From NCBI RefSeq assembly GCF_000377945.1, contig NZ_KB898925.1:1-64000 (forward strand): DNA of 64,000 bases, in the 5' to 3' direction. Shown one piece after another: positions 13,943 through 26,687 of this stretch. The notes under the pieces were generated by a model, which saw only the letters and a list, made by a program, of their open reading frames with translations, ran no database searches and was not told where the DNA came from. Made by a program: the position numbers and the translations under genes. The stretch comes from Thioalkalivibrio sulfidiphilus. Its GTDB lineage: Bacteria > Pseudomonadota > Gammaproteobacteria > Ectothiorhodospirales > Ectothiorhodospiraceae. Every line of letters begins with the position of its first letter. Position 1 is the stretch's first letter.

Positions 13943-14027
13943 TCAGTTGTCAGTTGTTGGAAAAGCCTTTGATAGCCCCTCTGCCGGATTCAGACTCCGA
14001 CCACTGACAACTGACAATTGACTAATC
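13937..14027. repeat. Paired inverted repeat (GTCAGTT units) holding two stop codons
   Basis: Left arm GATTAGTCAGTTGTCAGTTG and right arm complement ending TGACTAATC. The outermost GATTAG of each arm is read by the gene on that side, so mobA (+) and arxR (-) both end Asp-TAG inside the repeat. A hairpin here could terminate transcription from both sides. Confidence 0.85.
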
Positions 14028-15350
14028 AGACATCCCAAGGCGCTTCATGCGCTCCCAGAGATTCTTGCGGCTGATGCCCAGGTTGGCCGCGGTATGGCCG
14101 ATGTGGCCGTCGTGCAGGTCCAGGGCTCGGCGGATGTAGCTCTCCTCGCAGGCGCGCAGATAATGACTGAGCCGGGCGGCACCCTCGTCGTCGGCCTCGG
14201 CGTGCTCCCCGGGTTCGTCGAACAGGGCCTCGGCCTGCAGCAGCGGGCCTGGGCTCAGGATGCAGGCGCGCTCGATGGCGTGCTTGAGTTCGCGGATGTT
14301 GCCGGGCCAGGGGTGACGCAGAAGGGCCTGTTCTGCACTGGCGGACAACTGCTTGCGAGGCTCGCCCTGTACCCTTGCATGCTCGTCCAGGAACTGGCGC
14401 ACCAGCCAGGGGATGTCCTCGCGTCGCTCCCGCAGCGGCGGGATGCGCAGGTGGATCACGTGAATGCGGTAGTAGAGGTCCTCGCGGAAGCTGCCTTCCT
14501 TGACCATCTCCAGCAGATCCCGGTGGGTGGCACAGATCAGCCGCAACTGCACCGGGATGGGCCGCTCGCCGCCCACGCGCACGATCTGGCGTTCCTGGAT
14601 GGCACGCAGCAGCTTCACCTGCATCACCATGGGCATGTCGCCCACCTCGTCCAGGAACAGGGTGCCGCCATGGGCCTGCTCGAACACACCGGCCCGGGAG
14701 CGCACCGCGCCGGTGAAGGCACCCTTCTCGTGGCCGAACAGTTCCGCCTCCAGCAGGGTCTCGGTGAGCCCGCCGCAGTTGACCGCCACGAAGGGCTTGC
14801 CGGCATTGGCAGGATCCGCCCGGTGCAGCGCCCGGGCCACCGCCTCCTTGCCCGCACCGGACTCGCCGGTGATCAGTATCGTGCCCGCCTGGGCGGCGAG
14901 ACGCGGCAGCAGGGCCTCGATGCGCCGCATGGCGGGCGAGACCCCGAGAGAGCCGGAGCGAAGCCCCTCCCCTTCACCGTTGCGGGAAACCAGTTCCCAG
15001 AGCTTGTCCACCAGCTGGTCCAGGTCGAAGGGCTTGGTGATGTAGTCGGTGGCGCCCCGCTTGAGCAGGGCCACCGCCCGGTCCACGGCCCCGTAGCCTG
15101 TGATGAACAGCCAGGGGCAGCTCACCTTGCCCACGGCCATGAGTTCGTCGAACAAGGCATCGCCGTCGCCATCGGGCAGCCGGATATCGCTGATCACCAC
15201 GTCGTGCTCGCTCCCGGCAAGCCGGGTGCGTGCCTCGCGGACACTGCGACACCAGGTGACCTCGAAGCCTTCCAGGCTGAAACGGTCATGCAGGGATTCG
15301 CCCATGATGGGATCGTCTTCCACCAGACACATGCGCGGCTTGAGACTCAT
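14022..15350 (-). CDS. arxR: Sigma-54-dependent response regulator, ArxR
   Basis: 442 residues. The receiver domain (about 5-120) has the acidic pair EDD and phospho-acceptor Asp55 in VVISDIRLP. The AAA+ domain has Walker A GESGAGKE (about 162-169) and GAFTGA (210-215), the loop that contacts sigma-54. A Fis-type helix-turn-helix closes the protein (HTAANLGISRKNLWERMKRLG). It should bind upstream DNA when phosphorylated by ArxS and drive the sigma-54 promoter at 17875-17890. It overlaps arxS by 4 bp. The name rests on its place in an arxXSR set next to arxB'ABCD. Confidence 0.88.
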   Translation of the reverse strand: MSLKPRMCLVEDDPIMGESLHDRFSLEGFEVTWCRSVREARTRLAGSEHDVVISDIRLPDGDGDALFDELMAVGKVSCPWLFITGYGAVDRAVALLKRGATDYITKPFDLDQLVDKLWELVSRNGEGEGLRSGSLGVSPAMRRIEALLPRLAAQAGTILITGESGAGKEAVARALHRADPANAGKPFVAVNCGGLTETLLEAELFGHEKGAFTGAVRSRAGVFEQAHGGTLFLDEVGDMPMVMQVKLLRAIQERQIVRVGGERPIPVQLRLICATHRDLLEMVKEGSFREDLYYRIHVIHLRIPPLRERREDIPWLVRQFLDEHARVQGEPRKQLSASAEQALLRHPWPGNIRELKHAIERACILSPGPLLQAEALFDEPGEHAEADDEGAARLSHYLRACEESYIRRALDLHDGHIGHTAANLGISRKNLWERMKRLGMSD

Positions 15351-16801
15351 GCCGCCTCCCGATCACGCAGGGGCAGGACCACACGAAAGAGGGTCCGGTG
15401 CTCGCTGCTTTCCACCTCGATGCGCCCATCCATCTGCTGCACCAGCTGGTAAGTGACCCAGAGACCGAGTCCGTGTCCACGCCCGGATGAGCCGGAGAAG
15501 GGTTCGAACAGGTGCGCCATCTTCTCCGCGGGGATCGGGTCGCCGTGATTGATCACTTCCACACACAGGCCCTGCCGGGTCACCCCCAGATCACAGCTCA
15601 CCCGTCCCCCGGGGTGACTGGCCTGAAGGGCGTTGAGCAGAAGATTGAGCATGATCTGGCGCACCTGGGTGGACGGCAGAGCGACGGGCTCCACCAGCCG
15701 GACCGCCCAGTCCAGCTCCAGGGACTTGGCATGCACGTCGGGCAGGATGAGCGTGTGGATATCGTGGATGTCCTGGGGCGTCAGCGCGTGGCTTTCCAGA
15801 CGCGTCTCCACCAACAAGGCGCCGACCGTTTCCTTGATCTGCAACAGGCCACGCTCCAGCAGTGACAGGGTGCGCGCGGTGATCGCATCGGGTGTGCCAT
15901 GACGTCGATGCGTGCTCAGGGCATTGAGCATGCCGCCCAGGGGATTGTTGATCTCGTGGGCGATGCCGGCAGTCAGGCGCCCCACTGCGGCCAGGCGTTC
16001 GGAGGCCATGACGCCGCGCTCGAGTTGTTCCTTCTCGCGAAGATCCTCCAGCATGCGGCGGAACCGGGCGGACAGCAGTCCGATCTCGTCACCACCATCG
16101 TACAGATCGCATTGTATGTCGTCTGGGGGCTCACTACCCACGCGGGCCATGCAGGTGGACAGTTTCACCATGGGATCCGTCATGCGCTTGCCCCAGAACC
16201 AGCCCAGGGGAAGCAGGACGGCGAGCACGAACAGGGTGGCCAGAATCACCCGCTCCACCGTGTCCAGAAAACGGGGCAGCAGCAAGGCCCGCGCATAGCT
16301 CAGGATCAGGGTACCCATGGGACTGCCATCCTCGGCCAGGATAGGGACCACCATGACGAAACGAGCCGGGTCCACCCCCTCGGCCAGGTACGGGGAATCC
16401 CCCTGCCTGGTCCCGATCAGCGCTTGCAGCCGGCTGTAGGATTCACCCAACTCCTCGAGCGGCGTCAGCATGGGATGGGCCGATGGTTGGGATGACACAA
16501 AAATCGACCCTGAACGATCCAGCACCATGATCAGACGTTCATGGCCGTCGTCCGCCAGGCTGCGCTCAAGGGGTGTCATGATGGTCTCGTAGGCCTGCCA
16601 GACCTCGTCCCGGGTCAGGGCCGGGCGCAGGGTGCGGGCCAGCACCTTGCCCAGGTTCAGGGTATTGTCGATGAGATCCTGACGGCTGTCCTGGTAGGCA
16701 CGCACCAGCAGCACACTGGACAGGATCACCGCCGTGAGGATGATGACCAGGACCACACTCAAGGGCGTCTTGACTCGATAGCTGATGTCCCGCAAGCGCA
16801 T
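15347..16801 (-). CDS. arxS: Sensor histidine kinase, ArxS
   Basis: 484 residues. Two membrane helices (about 13-34 and 183-204) enclose a ~150-residue periplasmic sensing region. A HAMP-like linker follows, then the dimerisation box with phospho-His282 in AGIAHEINNPLGGML. The HATPase domain has N-box LNLLLNALQAS and a G-box near RGHGLGLWVTYQLV. It should phosphorylate ArxR, coded 4 bp overlapping downstream. ArxX, a periplasmic binding protein coded just upstream, is the likely partner that presents the ligand. The ligand (arsenite) is inferred from context only. Confidence 0.87.
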   Translation of the reverse strand: MRLRDISYRVKTPLSVVLVIILTAVILSSVLLVRAYQDSRQDLIDNTLNLGKVLARTLRPALTRDEVWQAYETIMTPLERSLADDGHERLIMVLDRSGSIFVSSQPSAHPMLTPLEELGESYSRLQALIGTRQGDSPYLAEGVDPARFVMVVPILAEDGSPMGTLILSYARALLLPRFLDTVERVILATLFVLAVLLPLGWFWGKRMTDPMVKLSTCMARVGSEPPDDIQCDLYDGGDEIGLLSARFRRMLEDLREKEQLERGVMASERLAAVGRLTAGIAHEINNPLGGMLNALSTHRRHGTPDAITARTLSLLERGLLQIKETVGALLVETRLESHALTPQDIHDIHTLILPDVHAKSLELDWAVRLVEPVALPSTQVRQIMLNLLLNALQASHPGGRVSCDLGVTRQGLCVEVINHGDPIPAEKMAHLFEPFSGSSGRGHGLGLWVTYQLVQQMDGRIEVESSEHRTLFRVVLPLRDREAA

Positions 16802-16802
16802 C

Positions 16803-17666
16803 TCAGGACAACCCGGCCTGCTGCATCAAGGCGCGGATCCCTTCATACAAATCCTGATCAGGCGATGTGAAGGCATCCAGAAAGAGTTCATTCAGCAGTG
16901 CCCGGCCTGTGTCGGTTTCACTCATGGCCATGAGTACACACTTGAACTCCCGCAAAGCGAGGGCATCCAGGTCCTGCCGTGCCACGATGGGCGGAAAGCC
17001 GAAGGCGTCGGATCGCTGCACCACCCGGGTCCGGGAGGTGAGTTCGGGATGAAGCACCTCCAGGGCCTCCCAGACGTAGCTGTCCACGGCCCCCCCATCG
17101 GCCAAGCCGACCGCCACGGCCTCCACCACATTGCGATGTGACCAGGCGAAGAAACTGCGACGGAAGAAGAAGGCCGGATCTTTGCCATAGAGACGGATCT
17201 GAGCCTGTGGCACCAGCCAGCCTGAATTGGACAGCGGATCGGCGTAGGCAAAGACCCGTCCTTCCAGATCCGGCAACTCGCGGGTGCGGCGGTCCCGCTC
17301 ACCCACGATCAGCAGGGATTGGTACTGCGGCCTGCCCCGATATAGGGGGGTGACCACAAGCTGCAGGCGTTCCCGGTGACGAACGTAGGGGTATCCGCAC
17401 AGCCAGGCACAGTCCAGCCCGCCCGTCAGGAGCAACTCGGTGATCTCCCGGTAGCTGCTGCGCTGCACGAAAGCGACGGGGCGCTCCATCTGTCGTTCCA
17501 GATAGGCGCGCCAACGTTCCAGGAAGGCGAGTTGATCGTCCAGGAAGACCGGCGTAAGCCCGATGCGCAGACTGTCATGGCCGATCGCGGCTGCAACAGG
17601 GGCACCGCCCAGGAGACTGGCCCCCAGGCCCGCGGCCAGACCCCGCAGCAGGGTTCGTCGATTCAT
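16803..17666 (-). CDS. arxX: Periplasmic oxyanion-binding protein, PhnD-like, ArxX
   Basis: 287 residues. The N-terminus MNRRTLLRGLAAGLGASLLGG is a twin-arginine-like signal peptide. The rest is a PhnD-type substrate-binding fold (RIGLTPVFLDDQ, then GGLDCAWLCGYPYV and GRVFAYADPLSNSG), a family that holds phosphonate or phosphate-like oxyanions. There is no transporter gene beside it. Instead the kinase gene arxS follows after one base, so it is a sensor subunit rather than an uptake protein. It is the first gene of the leftward arxXSR operon. Confidence 0.83.
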   Translation of the reverse strand: MNRRTLLRGLAAGLGASLLGGAPVAAAIGHDSLRIGLTPVFLDDQLAFLERWRAYLERQMERPVAFVQRSSYREITELLLTGGLDCAWLCGYPYVRHRERLQLVVTPLYRGRPQYQSLLIVGERDRRTRELPDLEGRVFAYADPLSNSGWLVPQAQIRLYGKDPAFFFRRSFFAWSHRNVVEAVAVGLADGGAVDSYVWEALEVLHPELTSRTRVVQRSDAFGFPPIVARQDLDALALREFKCVLMAMSETDTGRALLNELFLDAFTSPDQDLYEGIRALMQQAGLS

Positions 17667-17760: not shown

Positions 17761-17776
17761 GTTACCAGCTGGTAAC
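17761..17776. promoter_or_regulatory. Candidate ArxR enhancer site 1 (GTTAC-N6-GTAAC)
   Basis: A perfect 16-bp palindrome in the arxX-arxB' gap. It has the same half-sites and spacing as site 2, whose centre is 43 bp away (about four helical turns). It lies about 99 bp upstream of the sigma-54 promoter, a usual distance for an enhancer-binding protein. Confidence 0.65.
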
Positions 17777-17801
17777 CCGCAGCATCTCGCCAAGCCCGGA
17801 C

Positions 17802-17821
17802 GTGTTACTGACCGGTAACAC
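17802..17821. promoter_or_regulatory. Candidate ArxR enhancer site 2 (GTGTTAC-N6-GTAACAC)
   Basis: A perfect 7-bp-arm dyad whose inner part repeats the GTTAC-N6-GTAAC pattern of site 1. It ends 53 bp before the -24 box. The two sites share phase on the helix, which fits cooperative binding by a Fis-type dimer such as ArxR. Confidence 0.65.
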
Positions 17822-17874
17822 AGAACACCCTTCTGTAAGCCAGATGATCGCCGCAGTCCGGGAAAATCGGTCGC

Positions 17875-17890
17875 TGGCACGGTTCCCGCA
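17875..17890 (+). promoter_or_regulatory. Sigma-54 (-24/-12) promoter of the arx operon
   Basis: TGGCACGGTTCCCGCA carries the invariant GG and GC elements with the correct 12-bp offset, and TGGCACG is a perfect -24 box. The -12 box is CCGCA rather than TTGCA. It lies 123 bp upstream of arxB' and is the only such match seen in the gap. ArxR, coded divergently, has the GAFTGA loop needed to activate it. The rest of 17667-18012 (346 bp) holds the sites listed here and no gene. Confidence 0.78.
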
Positions 17891-18012
17891 TAGCTCTCTC
17901 ATACAAAGCCACAGGAGACAGGCAACGGCCATCTCCGAGGCACATAAAGAGGCAATCGACCCATGCCATTGGTCGGGAGTCATTGCCCCACCACTGGAGG
18001 AACCCACGCGTC

Positions 18013-19251
18013 ATGGCGATCAGCGCCAAGCCCGTGTCTCGATATGCGCGTCTGTCCGACCATCCCGGGCCGTGGATCGACGCGGATGCCTGCCTGTCCG
18101 TTCGCTTCCCGGACACCGCCTGCCGGGCATGCCAGGACCGTTGTCCCGCAGACGTGCTGCGAGTGGATCATGAGGGTGTTCACCTGTCCGAGGGCTGCGT
18201 CCGCTGCGGCCGTTGCGCGGCTGGGTGCCCCACCCACGCCCTGTCCCTGCCCGGCTGGCGCCTGGATCTGCCGGCCTCTGCCCCGCCACGGCTGACCCTG
18301 GACTGCGCCAAGGTCCCGGACAGCCTGGGTGCACCGGATGCCTTGCGTGTCCCCTGTTTGGGGGGCATCCGTCCCAGCCGCCTGTTGCAATGGCTGCAGG
18401 ACCATCCCACGGGACACATCACCCTGATGGATCGGGGATGGTGCGAAGACTGCGAGGCCGGCGGCTGCGACCATCCGGCAGGTGAAGCGGCACAGCGGGT
18501 CAACGATTGGCTGGGCCAAATGGGCGTTGACGGGGACCGCCATGTCCGGGTGGTACGCAGCCCCTTGCCCTCGCATCAAAGGCCTGCGCAAATCCCGGAC
18601 CCGAATACCCGGCAGTCGGTCAGCCGCAGAGGCTTCCTGCGCCAGCTGGCCGGCCAGGTCGCCGTGGCCGTACAGGGCATGGACGCCCATCTGGAACAGA
18701 CCGGGCCAGCCCCGCTTCGCGACGGATCCGCACGGATTCATCCCGCCGAACGGGTCGCCGTCCTGACACGCCTGTCCGCGATCGCGCCGGACAGGGCCCT
18801 GCCTGCCGAATTGTTCACCCGGGTTCACATCGATCAGCGTCGCTGCCATCACGATGCCCTGTGTGCCCGGGCCTGCCCGACCGCCGCCCTGGCCGAATGG
18901 CAGGGCGGCGGAGATGTCGGGATCCAGTTCGATCCCGCCCGTTGCATCGGCTGCGGCGAATGCCAGCGTCTCTGCCCGCAACAGGCCATCAGCCTGACGC
19001 CCGGCGACGACGAACCCTTGCCCATCCGGCCGCGCATCCTGAGCCGCCACGGCCAGCGCACCTGCGGCCACTGCCATTCTGCCTTCGTACCCAGAGAGGA
19101 TCTCGAAGACGACGAGACACTACCCCTGTGTCCGGATTGCGGGAAATCACAAGGACTCATGCGACATGAGTTCAATCGGCTGTTCGGCCCGGGGAATGGG
19201 CCTGCGGCCATCCAAACCAAGCGAGGAGAGAGAGCGTATGAATGTCCTTAA
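18013..19251 (+). CDS. arxB': Polyferredoxin-like iron-sulfur protein ArxB' (ArxB2)
   Basis: 412 residues, first gene of the arx operon. The N-terminal part has two ferredoxin-type clusters (CRACQDRCP near 37, CVRCGRCAAGCP near 62). A CEDCEAGGC group lies near 144. After an SRRGFLRQLAGQ segment (near 205), which looks like an internal twin-arginine motif, there are two more [4Fe-4S] motifs (CHHDALCARACP and CIGCGECQRLCP). A zinc-ribbon-like CGHC...CPDC is near the end. It probably carries electrons for or helps assemble the Arx complex. ATG 18013 with upstream GGAGG is preferred to TTG 17983. It overlaps arxA by 14 bp. Confidence 0.8.
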   Translation: MAISAKPVSRYARLSDHPGPWIDADACLSVRFPDTACRACQDRCPADVLRVDHEGVHLSEGCVRCGRCAAGCPTHALSLPGWRLDLPASAPPRLTLDCAKVPDSLGAPDALRVPCLGGIRPSRLLQWLQDHPTGHITLMDRGWCEDCEAGGCDHPAGEAAQRVNDWLGQMGVDGDRHVRVVRSPLPSHQRPAQIPDPNTRQSVSRRGFLRQLAGQVAVAVQGMDAHLEQTGPAPLRDGSARIHPAERVAVLTRLSAIAPDRALPAELFTRVHIDQRRCHHDALCARACPTAALAEWQGGGDVGIQFDPARCIGCGECQRLCPQQAISLTPGDDEPLPIRPRILSRHGQRTCGHCHSAFVPREDLEDDETLPLCPDCGKSQGLMRHEFNRLFGPGNGPAAIQTKRGERAYECP

Positions 19252-21730
19252 GGCACTCATGTCACGCCGCCGGTTCCTGAAACTCAGCGGCGCCGCGGGC
19301 GTTGCGGGCGCCAGCGCGGCCAAGCTGGGCGGCTTCACAGCCGCCGGCACGGCCAGCAAACCCGCGGGCGCCCAGATCCGTGGCGAGACCCGGATCACCA
19401 AGAACATCTGCGCCCAGTGTCCCGCCCGCTGCGGGATTGACGTCTACACCACCAACGGCAGGGTCCATGCCATCTACGGCGACAGGGGCAACCCGATCGC
19501 CAACGGAAAGCTCTGTCCCAAGGGGCATCTGGGCACCTATTTCCTCTACGACCCCGACCGTTTCAAGGGCCCGATGAAGCGCACCAACCCGCGCAAGGGG
19601 CGCAACGAGGACCCGGGTTTTGTGCCCATTTCCTGGGACGAGGCCCTGGACACCGTGGCACAACGCATCAACCGCCTGCGCGAGGCGGGCGAGGCCCATC
19701 GATTCGCCCACTTCTACGGCCGGGGATGGGGCTCCTCCGACGCCGGCCTGTATGGAGACTTCGGCAAGCTCATCGGCACACCCAATTCCGCCATCGGCCA
19801 TGCCTCCATCTGTGCCGAGGGCTCCAAGCGCGCGAAACGGGCCACCGACGGCAATGACTCCTACAACGCCTACGACTACCGCAACACCAACTACATCCTG
19901 TCTTTCGGTGCCTCCTTCCTGGAGGCCTTCCGGCCCTACAACTACCTGATGCAGGTCTGGGGCCACATGCGCAGCAAGAGCCCCATGACCCGGATCACCG
20001 CGGTAGACGTGCGCATGAACCCCACCCTGGCCGCCGCCGACCGAGCCCTCATGGTCAAGCCCGGCACCGACGGTGCACTGGCCCTGGCCATCGCCCACGT
20101 GATGCTGGTCGAGGGACTCTGGGAAAAGAGCTTCGTGGGTGATTTCCACGACGGACGCAACCGTTTCCGCACCGGCCAGCGTGTGGACGAGGACAGTTTC
20201 CACGAGAAATGGACCCACGGGCTGGTGCAATGGTGGAACGAGGAACTCAAGGACCGGACCCCCGAATGGGCCGAGCAGGTGACCGGGGTGCCGGCCCGGC
20301 AGACCGTGACCGTGGCCCGGGAGTTCGGCACCACGCGGCCCGCCATGGCCATCATGGAACGGGGCCCCACGGCCCACACCAACGGCGTCTACAACGGCAT
20401 GGCGATCCATGCACTGAACGCCCTGTCCGGCGCCATGTTTGCCGAGGGTGGCCTGTTCTACCAGATGGGTGTGCCTTACGGTGCCCTGCCGGCCAATGCC
20501 GACGACTTCATGGACGACATCGCCCGCGGGATGGCCGGCAGGTATCCGCGCATCGATATGGCGCGCACGGAGCGCTGGCCTATGACCGGCCACATGATGC
20601 AGGAGACGGCCAGAAACCACGTGAAGGGGGATCCCTACAAGCTGGATACGGCCATGTTTTTCTACACCAACCCGGTGTGGACCGCGCCGGACACCGCCGA
20701 CTGGGAAAAGATGCTGAGCGAGATCTTCGTGATCGACACCTCGCCTTTCCCCGGCGAGACCGCCATGTTCGCGGACCTGATCCTGCCGGACCATACCTAT
20801 CTGGAGCGCCTGCAGGATTCCCCCACCTACCCCTTCGAGGGCTGGCCCATGACCGCGCTGCGGGTGCCCGCCATCGATCCCGTCTACGACACCAAGCACT
20901 TCGGTGACACGATCATCGAGATCGGCAAACGGATCAACGGCCCCACCGGCGAGTTCTACCGCCGGCTGGACAACGTGGAGAACTGTCTGCGCCACCGGGC
21001 CGAGGGTTTTCGCAACAATCCCGGCGACAACGGCGTGGTGGATTTCGAGACCTGGAAGGCCAAGGGCGTCTGGTACAAGAAGCCCTATCACTGGCGCCAG
21101 GTGCGGGGCGAGTTCTACGAGTGGGACGGCGAGGGCTACAACCGCCTCATGACACCCGAGCAGGTCAAGGACAGGCTACTGCGCACGCCATCCGGGAAAT
21201 TCGAGTTCAAGTCCGGCTTCCTGGAGGGCCATGCGGACTACATCCACGCACAACTGGGCGTGGACCGGCGTCGGGTGGGCTATCCCCAGTGGCTGGAGCC
21301 GCGCCATACGGGCGGCAACCGCGACCTGCATTTCGTGACACCCAAGACCCCCCTGACCGCGGAAGGCCGGGGCGGCAACATCCCCCATGCAACCGCCCTG
21401 TTCCAGCCCAGCGTGGGCGGGCGGCGCACGGTCTATCTGGAGATCCATCCCCAGACAGCGCGGGCCAGGGGTATTCGCAACGGAGACCTGGTGAAGATCA
21501 CCTCGGACCTGGGCAGCATCCACGCCTACTGTCGCTTCACCGCAGCGAACCGCCCCGACACGGTGGTCCTGCCCTACGAACACGGCCACTGGGCACAGGG
21601 CCGCTGGGCTACGGCGCAGGAGCGCAGCACACACCCCGGCAACCCCAGTGACATCACCGCCAACGTCTCGGACCCGATCTCCGGTCTTGCCTGTTACTAC
21701 ACGGGCAAAGTCACCGTCGAGCGGGCCTGA
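19238..21730 (+). CDS. arxA: Arsenite oxidase catalytic subunit ArxA (DMSO reductase family)
   Basis: 830 residues. A twin-arginine signal SRRRFLK (about 9-15) sends the folded enzyme to the periplasm. A [4Fe-4S] site is Cys58-x2-Cys61-x3-Cys65-x27-Cys93. YGRGWG at about 160-165 is the motif I recall as typical of ArxA, where ArrA arsenate reductases have an RGRYWG-like sequence. Cys192 in HASICAEG is the probable molybdenum ligand. It binds bis-MGD and should oxidise arsenite to arsenate, feeding electrons through ArxB and ArxC to quinones. ATG 19238 has GAGGAGAG upstream and starts inside arxB'. Direction of catalysis in vivo is inferred from family and motif. Confidence 0.88.
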   Translation: MNVLKALMSRRRFLKLSGAAGVAGASAAKLGGFTAAGTASKPAGAQIRGETRITKNICAQCPARCGIDVYTTNGRVHAIYGDRGNPIANGKLCPKGHLGTYFLYDPDRFKGPMKRTNPRKGRNEDPGFVPISWDEALDTVAQRINRLREAGEAHRFAHFYGRGWGSSDAGLYGDFGKLIGTPNSAIGHASICAEGSKRAKRATDGNDSYNAYDYRNTNYILSFGASFLEAFRPYNYLMQVWGHMRSKSPMTRITAVDVRMNPTLAAADRALMVKPGTDGALALAIAHVMLVEGLWEKSFVGDFHDGRNRFRTGQRVDEDSFHEKWTHGLVQWWNEELKDRTPEWAEQVTGVPARQTVTVAREFGTTRPAMAIMERGPTAHTNGVYNGMAIHALNALSGAMFAEGGLFYQMGVPYGALPANADDFMDDIARGMAGRYPRIDMARTERWPMTGHMMQETARNHVKGDPYKLDTAMFFYTNPVWTAPDTADWEKMLSEIFVIDTSPFPGETAMFADLILPDHTYLERLQDSPTYPFEGWPMTALRVPAIDPVYDTKHFGDTIIEIGKRINGPTGEFYRRLDNVENCLRHRAEGFRNNPGDNGVVDFETWKAKGVWYKKPYHWRQVRGEFYEWDGEGYNRLMTPEQVKDRLLRTPSGKFEFKSGFLEGHADYIHAQLGVDRRRVGYPQWLEPRHTGGNRDLHFVTPKTPLTAEGRGGNIPHATALFQPSVGGRRTVYLEIHPQTARARGIRNGDLVKITSDLGSIHAYCRFTAANRPDTVVLPYEHGHWAQGRWATAQERSTHPGNPSDITANVSDPISGLACYYTGKVTVERA

Positions 21731-21756: not shown

Positions 21757-22509
21757 ATGGCAAAGTGGGGAATGGTCATCGACCTGGACAAGTGCACCGG
21801 CTGCCAGGCCTGCACCACCGCCTGCGGCATGGAGAACAACACCCTGCCCGGGGAAAACTGGCAGGACGTGCTCTACTACACCGAGGGCGAATATCCCAGC
21901 GCCCAGATGAAGTGGCTGCCGCGGCCGTGCATGCAGTGTGAAAACCCGTCCTGCGTGCACGTCTGCCCGACTCGGGCCACCTACAAGGACATGGATGCCG
22001 GCGGCATCGTGTTCGTGGACTGGAACAAGTGCATCGGTTGCAAGTACTGCATGATCGCCTGTCCTTACGGCGTGCGCTTCTACACCGACGAATCACCGCT
22101 CCTGGAGCCGAATCTCACCAAGGTATTCCCCGGGCGGGACGGCCAGCAATGGAGTCCGCCCTATCAGAATCCCAACGTGGACTGGCGCCGCGGCATCGGC
22201 ATCCAGCCCAAGGGCGTCGTCTCCAAGTGCACCTTCTGCTACCACAAGGTCAGCAAGGCCCCCGAGGGTGTCGCCGACCTGGACGAGGACAATCCGGAAC
22301 TGGTGGAGTACGTGCCCGCCTGCGTGCGCACCTGCCCGCCCAAGGCCCGCTATTTCGGTGATCTGGACAACCCCGGCTCGAACGTCAACAAGCTCGTGGC
22401 CGATCGCAAGGGCGTGAGACTGCTGGACCACACCGGAAACCGTCCCCAGGTCTACTACCTGGGCTCCGGTGCCAGCATCCCGGCCTTCAGACCCGCGCCC
22501 AAGGCGTGA
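21757..22509 (+). CDS. arxB: Iron-sulfur electron-transfer subunit ArxB
   Basis: 250 residues. Four ferredoxin-like clusters are visible: CTGCQACTTAC (about 13-23), CMQCENPSCVHVCP (about 54-67), CIGCKYCMIACP (about 92-103) and CTFC with the late CVRTCPPKA. This is the DmsB/PsrB/ArrB type of subunit, which carries electrons between the Mo subunit and the membrane anchor. It has no signal peptide of its own and is probably exported with the TAT-tagged ArxA. A GAGAGGAG ribosome site precedes it, 26 bp after arxA. Confidence 0.9.
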   Translation: MAKWGMVIDLDKCTGCQACTTACGMENNTLPGENWQDVLYYTEGEYPSAQMKWLPRPCMQCENPSCVHVCPTRATYKDMDAGGIVFVDWNKCIGCKYCMIACPYGVRFYTDESPLLEPNLTKVFPGRDGQQWSPPYQNPNVDWRRGIGIQPKGVVSKCTFCYHKVSKAPEGVADLDEDNPELVEYVPACVRTCPPKARYFGDLDNPGSNVNKLVADRKGVRLLDHTGNRPQVYYLGSGASIPAFRPAPKA

Positions 22510-22538: not shown

Positions 22539-23711
22539 ATGAGCACACGCGCAGAAAGCGTACTCCCGGAACATTCCCCGGGCAGCCTGCCCATCGGCAT
22601 CCTGTTGGCGGGCCTTGTTCTGGTGGCCATTGGGCTGGTCGGCGTCAGCAACCTGCTGACCCAGGGCCATTCCGCCTTCAACACCGGTAGCAGCGGTGTG
22701 GTGTGGGGCCTGCCGGTCTCGGCCTATGTGTTTTTCGTCCTGTCCTCCACGGGCCTGACCTTCGTGGCCTCGGTGGCCATGGTATTCGGCATCAAGGCCT
22801 TCTACCCCATCGCCAAGCGTTGCGTCTGGCTGGCACTGGCCACCCTCATCGCGGGGTTCATCTCGCTGGGTCTGGAGATCGGCCATCCGTTGCGCATGAT
22901 CTGGGCCATCCCGCTGAACCTTCAGGTCCGCTCACCCATGTTCTGGATGGGCGCGTTCTACTTCCTGTACATGTTCTTTCTGATCTGGAAGTTCAGCTAT
23001 CTGCAACGCAACGACTGGGACAGCCCCGCCAGCCGCAATGTCGGCATCGCCTCCTTCGTGACCGTGATCATCGCCCACGCCACCCTGGGCCTGGTCTTCG
23101 GCATGATGGCCATGCGACCCTTCTGGTACGGCTCCTTCGTGCCGGTGTACTTCCTGGCCACGGCGGCCCTCTCCGGGCTGGCCTTCGCCGTCCTGTTCAC
23201 CTACCTGTCCCACGGCACGGACACCTCTCGCATGGAACCCACCCTCCGGGAACTGATGGAACGCTTCATCCCCAAGATCTTCGCCCTGGTGCTGGGCGTG
23301 GTGCTGGTGTTCCACTTGAGCCGGACCATCACCGGCCTGTGGAGCAACAACCCGGAGATCAGCCTGGTCATGGAATACCAGGTGGGCACCTGGCTGTTTC
23401 ACCTGGAACTCTGGCTGGGCATGGTGCTGCCCTTCATCCTGCTGCTGCTTCCCGGCATGCGGGTCCAGCCCATGATCCAGGTGTTGAGCGCTGTGCTGGT
23501 GCTGATGGCGGTGTTCATCGGCCGGTATGAATACGTGGTCGGTGGGCAGATCATTCCGCTCTGGAAGGGCACCTGGTATCCGGACTTCATTGCCTACACC
23601 CCCTCCTTCACCGAATGGGGCCTGGTGGCGCTGGGGGGCGGAATAGGCCTGCTGATCTACGCCTTCGGTTCCTGGAAATTCAACCTGCGGGAACAACCCA
23701 GGCACCTGTGA
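22539..23711 (+). CDS. arxC: NrfD-type membrane anchor ArxC
   Basis: 390 residues with about ten hydrophobic helices spread over the whole length (for example 18-40, 60-85 and 90-110). It is of the NrfD/PsrC family, which binds quinone and links periplasmic Fe-S subunits to the quinone pool. In an arsenite oxidase it should accept electrons from ArxB and reduce quinone. AAGGAG lies 7 bp before the start codon. A terminator-like hairpin follows it at 23754-23787, before arxD. Confidence 0.88.
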   Translation: MSTRAESVLPEHSPGSLPIGILLAGLVLVAIGLVGVSNLLTQGHSAFNTGSSGVVWGLPVSAYVFFVLSSTGLTFVASVAMVFGIKAFYPIAKRCVWLALATLIAGFISLGLEIGHPLRMIWAIPLNLQVRSPMFWMGAFYFLYMFFLIWKFSYLQRNDWDSPASRNVGIASFVTVIIAHATLGLVFGMMAMRPFWYGSFVPVYFLATAALSGLAFAVLFTYLSHGTDTSRMEPTLRELMERFIPKIFALVLGVVLVFHLSRTITGLWSNNPEISLVMEYQVGTWLFHLELWLGMVLPFILLLLPGMRVQPMIQVLSAVLVLMAVFIGRYEYVVGGQIIPLWKGTWYPDFIAYTPSFTEWGLVALGGGIGLLIYAFGSWKFNLREQPRHL

Positions 23712-23816: not shown

Positions 23817-24734
23817 ATGAATCACATGACCATGGCGACCCGCCTGGAATCACCGACCCCTGAGATCCTCCAGGCAATGGCCGAGTTGTGCCTGTGTCTG
23901 GGCAACGCCTTCCTGCCGCCCCGTGATGCGGATTTCAGGCTCGGCATGATCGATGCCCTGTGCGACGACCTGCGGGAACTGGACGGGATTCTGGCATTCG
24001 CCGGGCCCGGCCAGATCGAGCATCTGAGCGAACGGCTGCGCAGTCTGCCCCCGGAACAGGAAGACCTGCTGCGCATCTACAGCCGTCTGTTTCTGTCCCC
24101 GCCCACACCCGCCACTCTGAATGCCGGCGTGTTCCTGGACGGCAATATCATGGGACAGGCCGCTCTGGGCATGGAGTCCCTGTACCAGAAGTACCAGCTG
24201 GCCAAGGACAGCGGGTTTCGTGACCTGCCGGACCACCTGTCGCTGCAATTGCAGTTCATCGCCTATCTGCTTGCCCTGCCCGTGGAGAAAGATGCCCCTG
24301 GAGATGCGCTGTTGGATGCCAGCGAGTTCATCTCGGCCTACATGACCCCCTGGCTGCCTGCCCTGGCCGAACAGTGTGCGAGGGCCGAGCATGACCACCA
24401 CCTGCCGGACATCTACAGCCGGCTGGCCGAACTGGTGCATCGGGCTCTGGATCGCATCCGGCCCGATCTTCCCCTGCCCCGCGCGGCAGGCGTCGTCCAG
24501 GCCGGAGCAGACCTGCACAGACCGACCATGGAGCCCCCCCAGGGCGAGCCCGTCGCCTGCTGTCGGTGCGGCAAACCCTTCCTGGTGGACAATGAACTCT
24601 CCAACCTGATCTCCAGGCTGACATCCCAGGGACTCGATGCGAGCCACCTCAGCGTCTGCGCGCAATGCAGGACCGGATCCCTGGGTCTGCATCCCATGAC
24701 ACCGCCCCAGGCCAAGAAACCCGGCAGGGGATGA
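23817..24734 (+). CDS. arxD: TorD-family molybdoenzyme chaperone ArxD
   Basis: 305 residues. The all-helical N-terminal ~210 residues fit the TorD/DmsD/NarJ chaperone family (EQEDLLRIYSRLFLSPPTPATLNAG... and PDHLSLQLQFIAYLL). These proteins hold the TAT signal of the Mo subunit until the cofactor is in. It has an unusual C-terminal extension with CCRCGKPF...CAQC (about 243-283), a zinc-ribbon-like module that plain TorD proteins lack. GAGGAG precedes ATG 23817. Expression may be set separately by the hairpins just upstream. Confidence 0.83.
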   Translation: MNHMTMATRLESPTPEILQAMAELCLCLGNAFLPPRDADFRLGMIDALCDDLRELDGILAFAGPGQIEHLSERLRSLPPEQEDLLRIYSRLFLSPPTPATLNAGVFLDGNIMGQAALGMESLYQKYQLAKDSGFRDLPDHLSLQLQFIAYLLALPVEKDAPGDALLDASEFISAYMTPWLPALAEQCARAEHDHHLPDIYSRLAELVHRALDRIRPDLPLPRAAGVVQAGADLHRPTMEPPQGEPVACCRCGKPFLVDNELSNLISRLTSQGLDASHLSVCAQCRTGSLGLHPMTPPQAKKPGRG

Positions 24735-25300: not shown

Positions 25301-25915
25301 TCACTGCCGAGACGGCACCAGCAACACCAGCCGCCTCGCGCTGCGGCAGAGTGCCTCGGCGGTACTGCCCAGCAGCAGCACCACGATGGGCGCGAAGGCG
25401 AATAGCATGATGATGTCGTTCACCGCCACCTGCACCAGGGTGTAGGCGGCATCGCCGCGAGTCAGGTAGCTCCACACGAAGACCATGGCGGTACAGGGCG
25501 CGGCGCCCAGCAGGATCGCCCCTGCCAGGTACTCGCGGCCCAGATCCTCGGGGATCCATGGAGCGAACACCACCATGAGAAAGAACCAGGCGATGGCGAA
25601 CATGGTGAAGGGCTTGATCAGCCAGTTGACCGTGGTGGTGATGCCGAGCCCCCTGGGCTCCCGGCGTACCCCCAGGATGGCGGAGAAATCGATCTGCACC
25701 ATCATGGGATAGATCATGGCCCAGATGAGGATCGCCACCGGGATGGACACCGAGGCGTACTCCCAGCGCGCCAGGGTCTCGGGCACCACCGGTAAGAGCT
25801 GCCCCAGGGCCACGCCCGCGATGATGCACAGGGCGACCCACACGGTCAGGTAACGTTCGAAGAACCCCATGCCTTCACTGGGGGAGATCTCGGCTGTGTC
25901 AGCGGCTCGGTTCAT
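25301..25915 (-). pseudogene. acr3: Truncated arsenite efflux permease Acr3
   Basis: 204 residues where Acr3 normally has about 350 and ten membrane helices. The N-terminal ~185 residues match Acr3 well, including YPMMVQIDFSAI and the AILLGAAPCTAMVFVWSYL segment with its conserved Cys. After VVLLLGST the match stops and the frame ends 17 codons later with unrelated sequence (ALCRSARRLVLLVPSRQ). About five helices and the rest of the transport path are gone, so export of arsenite by this copy is unlikely. It overlaps arsC by 4 bp as third gene of an arsR-arsC-acr3 operon. Confidence 0.8.
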
Positions 25916-26391
25916 ACGTCCATACCTCCGACGCGCTCCAGTTCCGATTCAAGACGATGAGGATCCCGCTCCAGCTCATCCAGGGGCAGTGCCAGCAGCG
26001 CCTCGATGCGACGGCGCAGAATCCGGTAGGCCCGTTCGAAGGCCGCCTCGATCTCGGCCTCGCTGCCCATGGCCCTGGCGGGGTCATCCATACCCCAGTG
26101 GACCCTGAGGACAGGCCCCAAATACGCGGGACAGGCCTCACCAGCCGCATCCGCACACGTGGTGATGATGATGTCCGGTGTTTCCGGCAAGGTGTCCCAG
26201 GACTTGGTGTACAGACCTTCCGTGGAGATGCCCTCCCGTTTCAGCAGAGCCAGCGCACGGGGGTTGACCTGGTCCGCAGGTTGACTGCCGGCACTCAGGG
26301 CGCGCCACCCCGGCGGCGCCAGGTGGTTGAACACCGCCTCGGCGAGGATGGAACGGCAGGAATTGCCGGTGCACAGATACAGGATATTCAT
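25912..26391 (-). CDS. arsC: Arsenate reductase ArsC, low-molecular-weight phosphatase type
   Basis: 159 residues. It begins MNILYLCTGNSCRSILAEA; the CTGNSCRS loop is the C-x5-R oxyanion site of the phosphatase-like ArsC family. GAGEACPAYLGP carries a further Cys and SWDTLPETPDIIITTCAD another, the pattern of enzymes that pass a disulfide along to thioredoxin or glutaredoxin. It reduces arsenate to arsenite in the cytosol. The start ATG 26391 overlaps the arsR stop (ATGA) and its own stop overlaps acr3. The gene looks intact although both neighbours are damaged. Confidence 0.87.
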   Translation of the reverse strand: MNILYLCTGNSCRSILAEAVFNHLAPPGWRALSAGSQPADQVNPRALALLKREGISTEGLYTKSWDTLPETPDIIITTCADAAGEACPAYLGPVLRVHWGMDDPARAMGSEAEIEAAFERAYRILRRRIEALLALPLDELERDPHRLESELERVGGMDV

Positions 26392-26687
26392 GGCTTGACC
26401 GCTTCGGGGCCGGCTGCGGCACAAGCGCCGCCGACACAGCCCGACAGTTCGGACAGATCGGTGCACTCCTCCGGGTGCCCGGCACAGCATTCCTCGGTGA
26501 GGTAGGCCACCAGATCGAGCATCGCGGGAAGATTGGCCCGGTAGCGCTGGTAGCGTCCCTCCTGGGTGACCGACAGCAGGCCCGCCCGGGTCAGGGTCTT
26601 GAGATGGAAGGACAGATTGGTGGGCGGCAGGTCCAGCGCGGCTGATATCTCCCCGGCCACCATGCCTTCCGGCCCCTGGCGTACCAA
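26388..26687 (-). pseudogene. arsR: ArsR-family repressor lacking its N-terminus
   Basis: About 99 residues remain: LVRQGPEGMVAGEIS, the winged helix (LDLPPTNLSFHLKTLTRAGLLS) and a Cys-rich tail (ECCAGHPEEC...CVGGAC) able to bind As(III). Normal ArsR proteins have ~20 more residues in front, with the first helices and the start codon. Upstream of codon TTG 26687 the reading frame stays open but is antisense to a VOC gene, so the long open frame there is not arsR. The junction suggests a deletion. Use of TTG 26687 or ATG 26663 as a start is conceivable but would give a shortened protein. Confidence 0.75.

Follow-up and report, generated by a model that had tools for sequence, protein, structure and literature searches.

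Enhancers such as those of NtrC at glnA and NifA at nif genes consist of paired sites for activator dimers upstream of a sigma-54 promoter, which act through DNA looping and prefer one face of the helix. A related arrangement is known for aioBA operons.

Two tandem palindromes and a -24/-12 region were found in 12 of 12 aioBA operons accompanied by aioXSR and in none without these genes (Li 2013, PMC3834237). The dependence of aio on RpoN is experimental (PMC2848651), and an AioR site, GTTCGGATTTCCGAAC, was footprinted in A. tumefaciens (Shi 2017, PMC5335332). For the arx genes of Alkalilimnicola ehrlichii MLHE-1, one putative ArxR site together with a promoter for RpoN was proposed (Badilla 2018, PMC5908839). 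Regulation of arx by arxXSR is called undemonstrated in arx papers (PMC6549141, PMC6683785), and induction of arxA requires anaerobiosis besides arsenite (PMC6683785). The literature yielded no footprint, gel shift, mapped start site or mutant for any arx promoter, and the published MLHE-1 promoter sequence has no match in 47 genomes of the order studied here.

The arx locus and its putative enhancer

The window, a stretch of 64,000 nucleotides from Thioalkalivibrio sulfidiphilus, carries an arx gene cluster in which arxXSR is divergent from arxB2ABCD and ArxA falls in the arx clade. Two dyads lie between the two operons. They are, with a probability of roughly 0.92, an upstream activating sequence (enhancer) of arxB2ABCD that would be bound by ArxR and drive a sigma-54 promoter. 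The features are as follows.

14022-15350, minus strand: arxR, regulator with receiver, sigma-54 AAA+ and Fis-type HTH domains
14037-14072, minus strand: recognition-helix region of ArxR, SRKNLWERMKRL, residues 427-438
14706-14723, minus strand: GAFTGA loop (residues 210-215) by which ArxR would contact sigma-54
15347-16801, minus strand: arxS, sensor histidine kinase (open reading frame and synteny; homologues in relatives)
16803-17666, minus strand: arxX, periplasmic arsenite-binding protein (PF12974; family assignment, synteny)
17761-17776, no strand: putative distal ArxR dyad, GTTACCAGCTGGTAAC (sequence, rarity in the genome, conservation across arx loci)
17777-17803, no strand: 27-bp linker between the dyads (length conserved at 26-29 bp, sequence not)
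17804-17819, no strand: putative proximal ArxR dyad, GTTACTGACCGGTAAC (sequence, rarity, 42-45 bp spacing in most loci)
17875-17890, plus strand: predicted sigma-54 -24/-12 box, TGGCACGGTTCCCGCA (GG-N10-GC; same distance class in sister species)
17901, plus strand: predicted transcript start, about +1 (from the -12 position; 112 nt before the arxB2 ATG)
18013-19251, plus strand: arxB2 (ArxB'), 4Fe-4S protein, first gene of the putatively controlled operon
19238-21730, plus strand: arxA, molybdopterin subunit of arsenite oxidase (clusters with arx loci on the ArxA tree)
21757-22509, plus strand: arxB, 4Fe-4S subunit (open reading frame and synteny)
22539-23711, plus strand: arxC, membrane subunit (open reading frame and synteny)
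23817-24734, plus strand: arxD, TorD-like chaperone (open reading frame and synteny)

A sequence-only reading of this DNA had described two perfect GTTAC-N6-GTAAC dyads with centres 43 bp apart, and both are present as described. The distal one is a palindrome across its full 16 bp, and the proximal one is palindromic within its half-sites. The whole 3.05-Mb genome holds only these two perfect matches. With at most one mismatch, 8 dyad sites occur in the genome against 36 for a backward control pattern, and after shuffling 0.00014 perfect dyads are expected per arx-locus upstream region.

The same reading had written the promoter as TGGCACG-N7-GC. The box lies where it was placed and has the canonical 10 bp between GG and GC, but its spacer is N6, so that it reads TGGCACG-N6-GC (17875-17889). 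The dyad centres lie 64.5 and 107.5 bp upstream of the -24 GG, in agreement with an earlier estimate of 60-110 bp, and ArxR does contain the GAFTGA loop ascribed to it. The -12 element of the window is weak, with CCGC in place of TTGC (the base before GC deviates). Loci of the same genus have GTGCA or ATGCA at -12 at an equal distance (63.5-64.5 bp, counted from the centre of the proximal dyad), which supports the position of the window box. No sigma-70-like promoter was recognised in the arxX/arxB2 intergenic region, so the promotion of arxX is unexplained. The arrangement is that of a sigma-54 enhancer: inverted-repeat sites lie 50-200 bp upstream of a GG-N10-GC box and are phased across lineages, and the genome encodes RpoN and a putative cognate activator with GAFTGA, AAA+ and HTH.

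After the arx operon, window positions 25301-26490 contain a fragment of an ACR3-like arsenite transporter together with an arsenate-reductase-like frame of the low-molecular-weight phosphatase type, both named from translations alone. Together with the arx operon, this region is a putative arsenic island.

Distribution of the dyads among arx loci

The comparative set consisted of 80 ArxA loci from GTDB genomes, classed by whether arxR, arxS or arxX was on the fetched DNA; loci with less than 300 bp upstream were left out. In the class without regulator genes, at least 7 kb of upstream DNA was present at each locus. Dyads were searched for in the 600 bp before the operon, and counts of two or more dyads allow one mismatch. 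A perfect dyad was found in 34 of 36 regulator-bearing loci, the window included (35 with imperfect dyads), and at least two dyads in 31 of them. A -24/-12 box follows the dyads in nearly all. No dyad was found in any of the 19 loci without regulator genes, which include close ArxA relatives. The expectation that other genomes would have such dyads and a downstream box before arx thus held. Twelve short contigs fall outside both classes, and one of them (L015) has a dyad pair. GTTAC dyads are absent from four Rhodobacteraceae loci whose regulator is divergent. The dyad is conserved across beta-, gamma- and some alphaproteobacteria.

An unbiased motif search covered all 1,024 five-letter words with gaps of 0-15 (16,384 dyad words). 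GTTAC-N6-GTAAC ranked first: 28 of the 29 lineage representatives have it, and none of the 19 controls does. On the ArxA tree, the regulator state changed six times, and the dyad state changed with it in five of five supported independent pairs, too few pairs for a sign test to reach p 0.05 (median p 0.0625). These contrasts, and a dyad type that follows the regulator type, support the earlier suggestion of a probable ArxR enhancer. Dyads and promoter in a fixed geometry would very probably form the switch from the arsenite signal to expression.

Locus L085 encodes ArxR, yet has no recognisable dyad before arxA; its regulator genes are elsewhere on the contig. In both L070 and L085, a -24/-12 box that is close to perfect, TGGCATGGCTATTGCA, stands about 105 bp ahead of arxA, with only degenerate dyads, GTTACG(A/C)TGCGCTACC, upstream of that gene. 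In Aromatoleum/Azoarcus, a third perfect GTTAC dyad lies within the arxB2 coding region (L077:9281, L076:5279, L080:9278, L084:9276, L087:7939 and L089:9281). It is kept despite diverging flanking codons, and no -24/-12 box comes after it.

Spacing and helical phasing

At most loci, neighbouring dyads have a spacing of 42-45 bp; at some it is 30-34 bp. Spacings of 60 bp and 182 bp occur in one locus each, and some loci have a single dyad. Across 22 lineages with a 42-45 bp pair, the linker of 26-29 bp holds 0.12 bit per column and the half-sites 1.85 bit per column; the half-sites were the selection criterion, so only the linker and flanks are independent. Distances from the proximal centre to the -24 GG fall into classes near 52, 64, 74, 86 and 98-100 bp. 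When each of 29 lineages contributes a single value, the best period is 11.35 bp (p about 5e-5 against jittered distances), and periodicity is also significant at 10.5 bp; with 33 lineages, p is 1e-4. Such phased classes are expected of an activator that binds on one face of the DNA and forms a short loop.

Association of the dyads with operon and regulator type

In three Thioalkalivibrio loci (L016, L019 and L086), arxXSR follows arxD and has the same orientation. The dyad pair is still before arxB2 and none is before arxX, which indicates that the element belongs to the structural operon. In Rhodobacteraceae, the arx regulator is AioR-like (34-37% identical to ArxR), and the arx operons have GTTCG-N6-CGAAC dyads, perfect or nearly so, 33 bp apart. 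Alphaproteobacterial aio loci have GTTCG or GTCCG dyads, 33 bp apart when paired, in agreement with the AioR footprint (PMC5335332). Where operons carry GTTAC dyads, the recognition helix of the regulator reads RK(N/T/S)LWE; where they carry GTTCG dyads, it reads RTT(L/F)W(E/D). This change arose once on the regulator tree; therefore, the link between helix and half-site rests on a single event. The dyad type tracks the regulator type and the dyads are kept at arxB2, suggesting that they accompany the regulator and act for the structural operon.

The GAFTGA loop is wholly absent from the AioR-like regulators encoded with Rhodobacteraceae arx operons and with two aio loci of alphaproteobacteria (L028, L030, L031, L072, L117 and L118 in all). 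AioR-type dyads are still found before most of their operons. These regulators may act with another sigma factor, as Rhodobacter NtrC does.

Genome-wide specificity and a second target system

The motif had been put forward as searchable, and genome scans bore this out by matching only arx or XSR-linked molybdoenzyme loci. In the window's order, the two-dyad pattern occurs in 9 of 47 genomes, all nine of which also encode ArxA; at the order's other three ArxA loci, the dyads are imperfect or spaced differently. In a class sample of Gammaproteobacteria, it occurs in 4 of 369 genomes. Two of these matches (G000 and G079) are arx, and the other two are in one genus without an ArxA match. Throughout the scanned genomes, the perfect pair stands only before arx or XSR-linked molybdoenzyme operons.

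Genomes G087 and G211 of that genus (loci L119, L120, L121 and L122) contain an XSR module whose X and R proteins are each 55% identical to ArxX and ArxR. It is divergent from an operon for an EB_dh cytochrome, an Fe-S protein, NrfD and a PsrA/PhsA-like molybdoenzyme that is 27% identical to ArxA. A second operon encodes a paralogue of the molybdoenzyme, and a double dyad precedes both operons. ArsR-like and ACR3-like genes adjoin the XSR operons. Dyad spacing is 43 or 44 bp, and in three readable cases the -24/-12 box is 73.5-74.5 bp from the proximal centre. The PsrA/PhsA-like enzyme family is present in 12 of the 369 genomes, with the dyad pair in this genus only. We tentatively propose that the XSR module and its double-dyad enhancer could be a cassette for sensing arsenic oxyanions that is transferable and independent of arsenite oxidase, and that the complex of these genomes could be an undescribed arsenic-responsive, perhaps arsenic-metabolising, enzyme system; we consider this possible, but hold the opposite to be somewhat more probable.

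The one-mismatch dyads at other places in the window's genome (L003, L004 and L123-L126) mostly lie unpaired within unrelated genes or next to them, and we therefore claim no wider ArxR regulon. An extra dyad of L012 at 13643 was set aside, as it is inside a diaminopimelate-decarboxylase-like reading frame.

Proposed mechanism and alternative explanations

In the proposed mechanism, arsenite bound by ArxX would activate ArxS, which would phosphorylate ArxR. Each dyad would be occupied by one ArxR dimer, and with four helical turns between them both dimers would sit on one side of the DNA. Once assembled, the AAA+ ring of ArxR would reach the closed sigma-54 polymerase at 17875-17890 through a short DNA loop and its GAFTGA loop, and open this complex, so that transcription would begin near 17901. 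The dyad element does not explain the anaerobic requirement of arxA induction.

The intergenic region is common to both operons, and the dyads could instead be the operator of the divergent arxXSR, for autoregulation or repression, with any effect on arxB2ABCD secondary. The distal dyad is 95 bp from the arxX start, a promoter for arxX was not recognised here, and NT-26 has a predicted AioR site before aioX (PMC6011840). The spacing, however, is phased to the -24/-12 box on the arxB2 side, and the three clusters with relocated arxXSR led us to reject an arxXSR operator as the main role, which is now quite unlikely. The dyads may have an additional autoregulatory role at arxXSR. It is a little less probable still that they bind some other regulator that is simply found together with regulator-bearing arx clusters, for example one of the redox or anaerobic response, or a nucleoid protein. 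The need for anaerobiosis would suit such a protein, and binding of ArxR to the dyads is itself inferred. Against it, the dyads are absent from the 19 arx loci without XSR, the motif type switches with the regulator type, and the geometry class is that of the footprinted AioR site. Two perfect copies in the genome are also fewer than a global regulator would need.

Palindromes that arose by chance close to a fortuitous sigma-54-like match would fit the abundance of loose -24/-12 matches in the GC-rich window (342 against 356 expected, no excess over chance). The minute number of perfect dyads expected per region stands against this, as do conservation in beta-, gamma- and some alphaproteobacteria and the box position kept in the genus. 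Conservation refutes a chance origin of the dyads, which we give almost no weight.

The ArxR enhancer reading provides an exact candidate cis-element, its geometry and a start-site prediction for arsenite induction of arx genes. It also provides a genome-searchable signature that matched only XSR-linked molybdoenzyme loci in the scanned genomes, including an undescribed system. The arx operons under AioR-like regulators amount to a natural exchange: they link the kind of site to the kind of regulator and point to two residues as candidates for specificity.

Comparison with known systems

The arx dyads share with the AioR sites of aioBA a 16-bp 5-6-5 dyad, usually a tandem pair, before a -24/-12 box and upstream of an XSR-controlled molybdoenzyme. 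Both are present only with XSR genes, and both regulators are of the NtrC/AtoC kind. In contrast, the half-sites of the window and of other ArxR loci are GTTAC/GTAAC and not the GTTCG/CGAAC of aio, which makes them an ArxR-type variant rather than an AioR site. The arx dyads are 42-45 bp apart (four turns), whereas aio dyads are 33 bp apart (three turns) where measured here. The recognition helices also differ (RK(N/T/S) in ArxR, RTT in AioR), and arx is a different enzyme.

The putative ArxR site of MLHE-1 agrees in gene position, regulatory model and gtaac half-site. As published, gtaacaattcaagc, it is one non-palindromic 14-mer inferred from NT-26, unlike the perfect, paired and phased dyad found here across many arx loci. 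Compared with the NtrC/glnA and NifA/nif enhancers, the arx motif differs, and the signal is a metalloid sensed via a periplasmic binding protein. The arx dyads are thus a variant of the known AioR/sigma-54 scheme and extend it; what is new is the motif specific to arx, the phased arrangement of its pairs, its link with the type of regulator and a second system as target.
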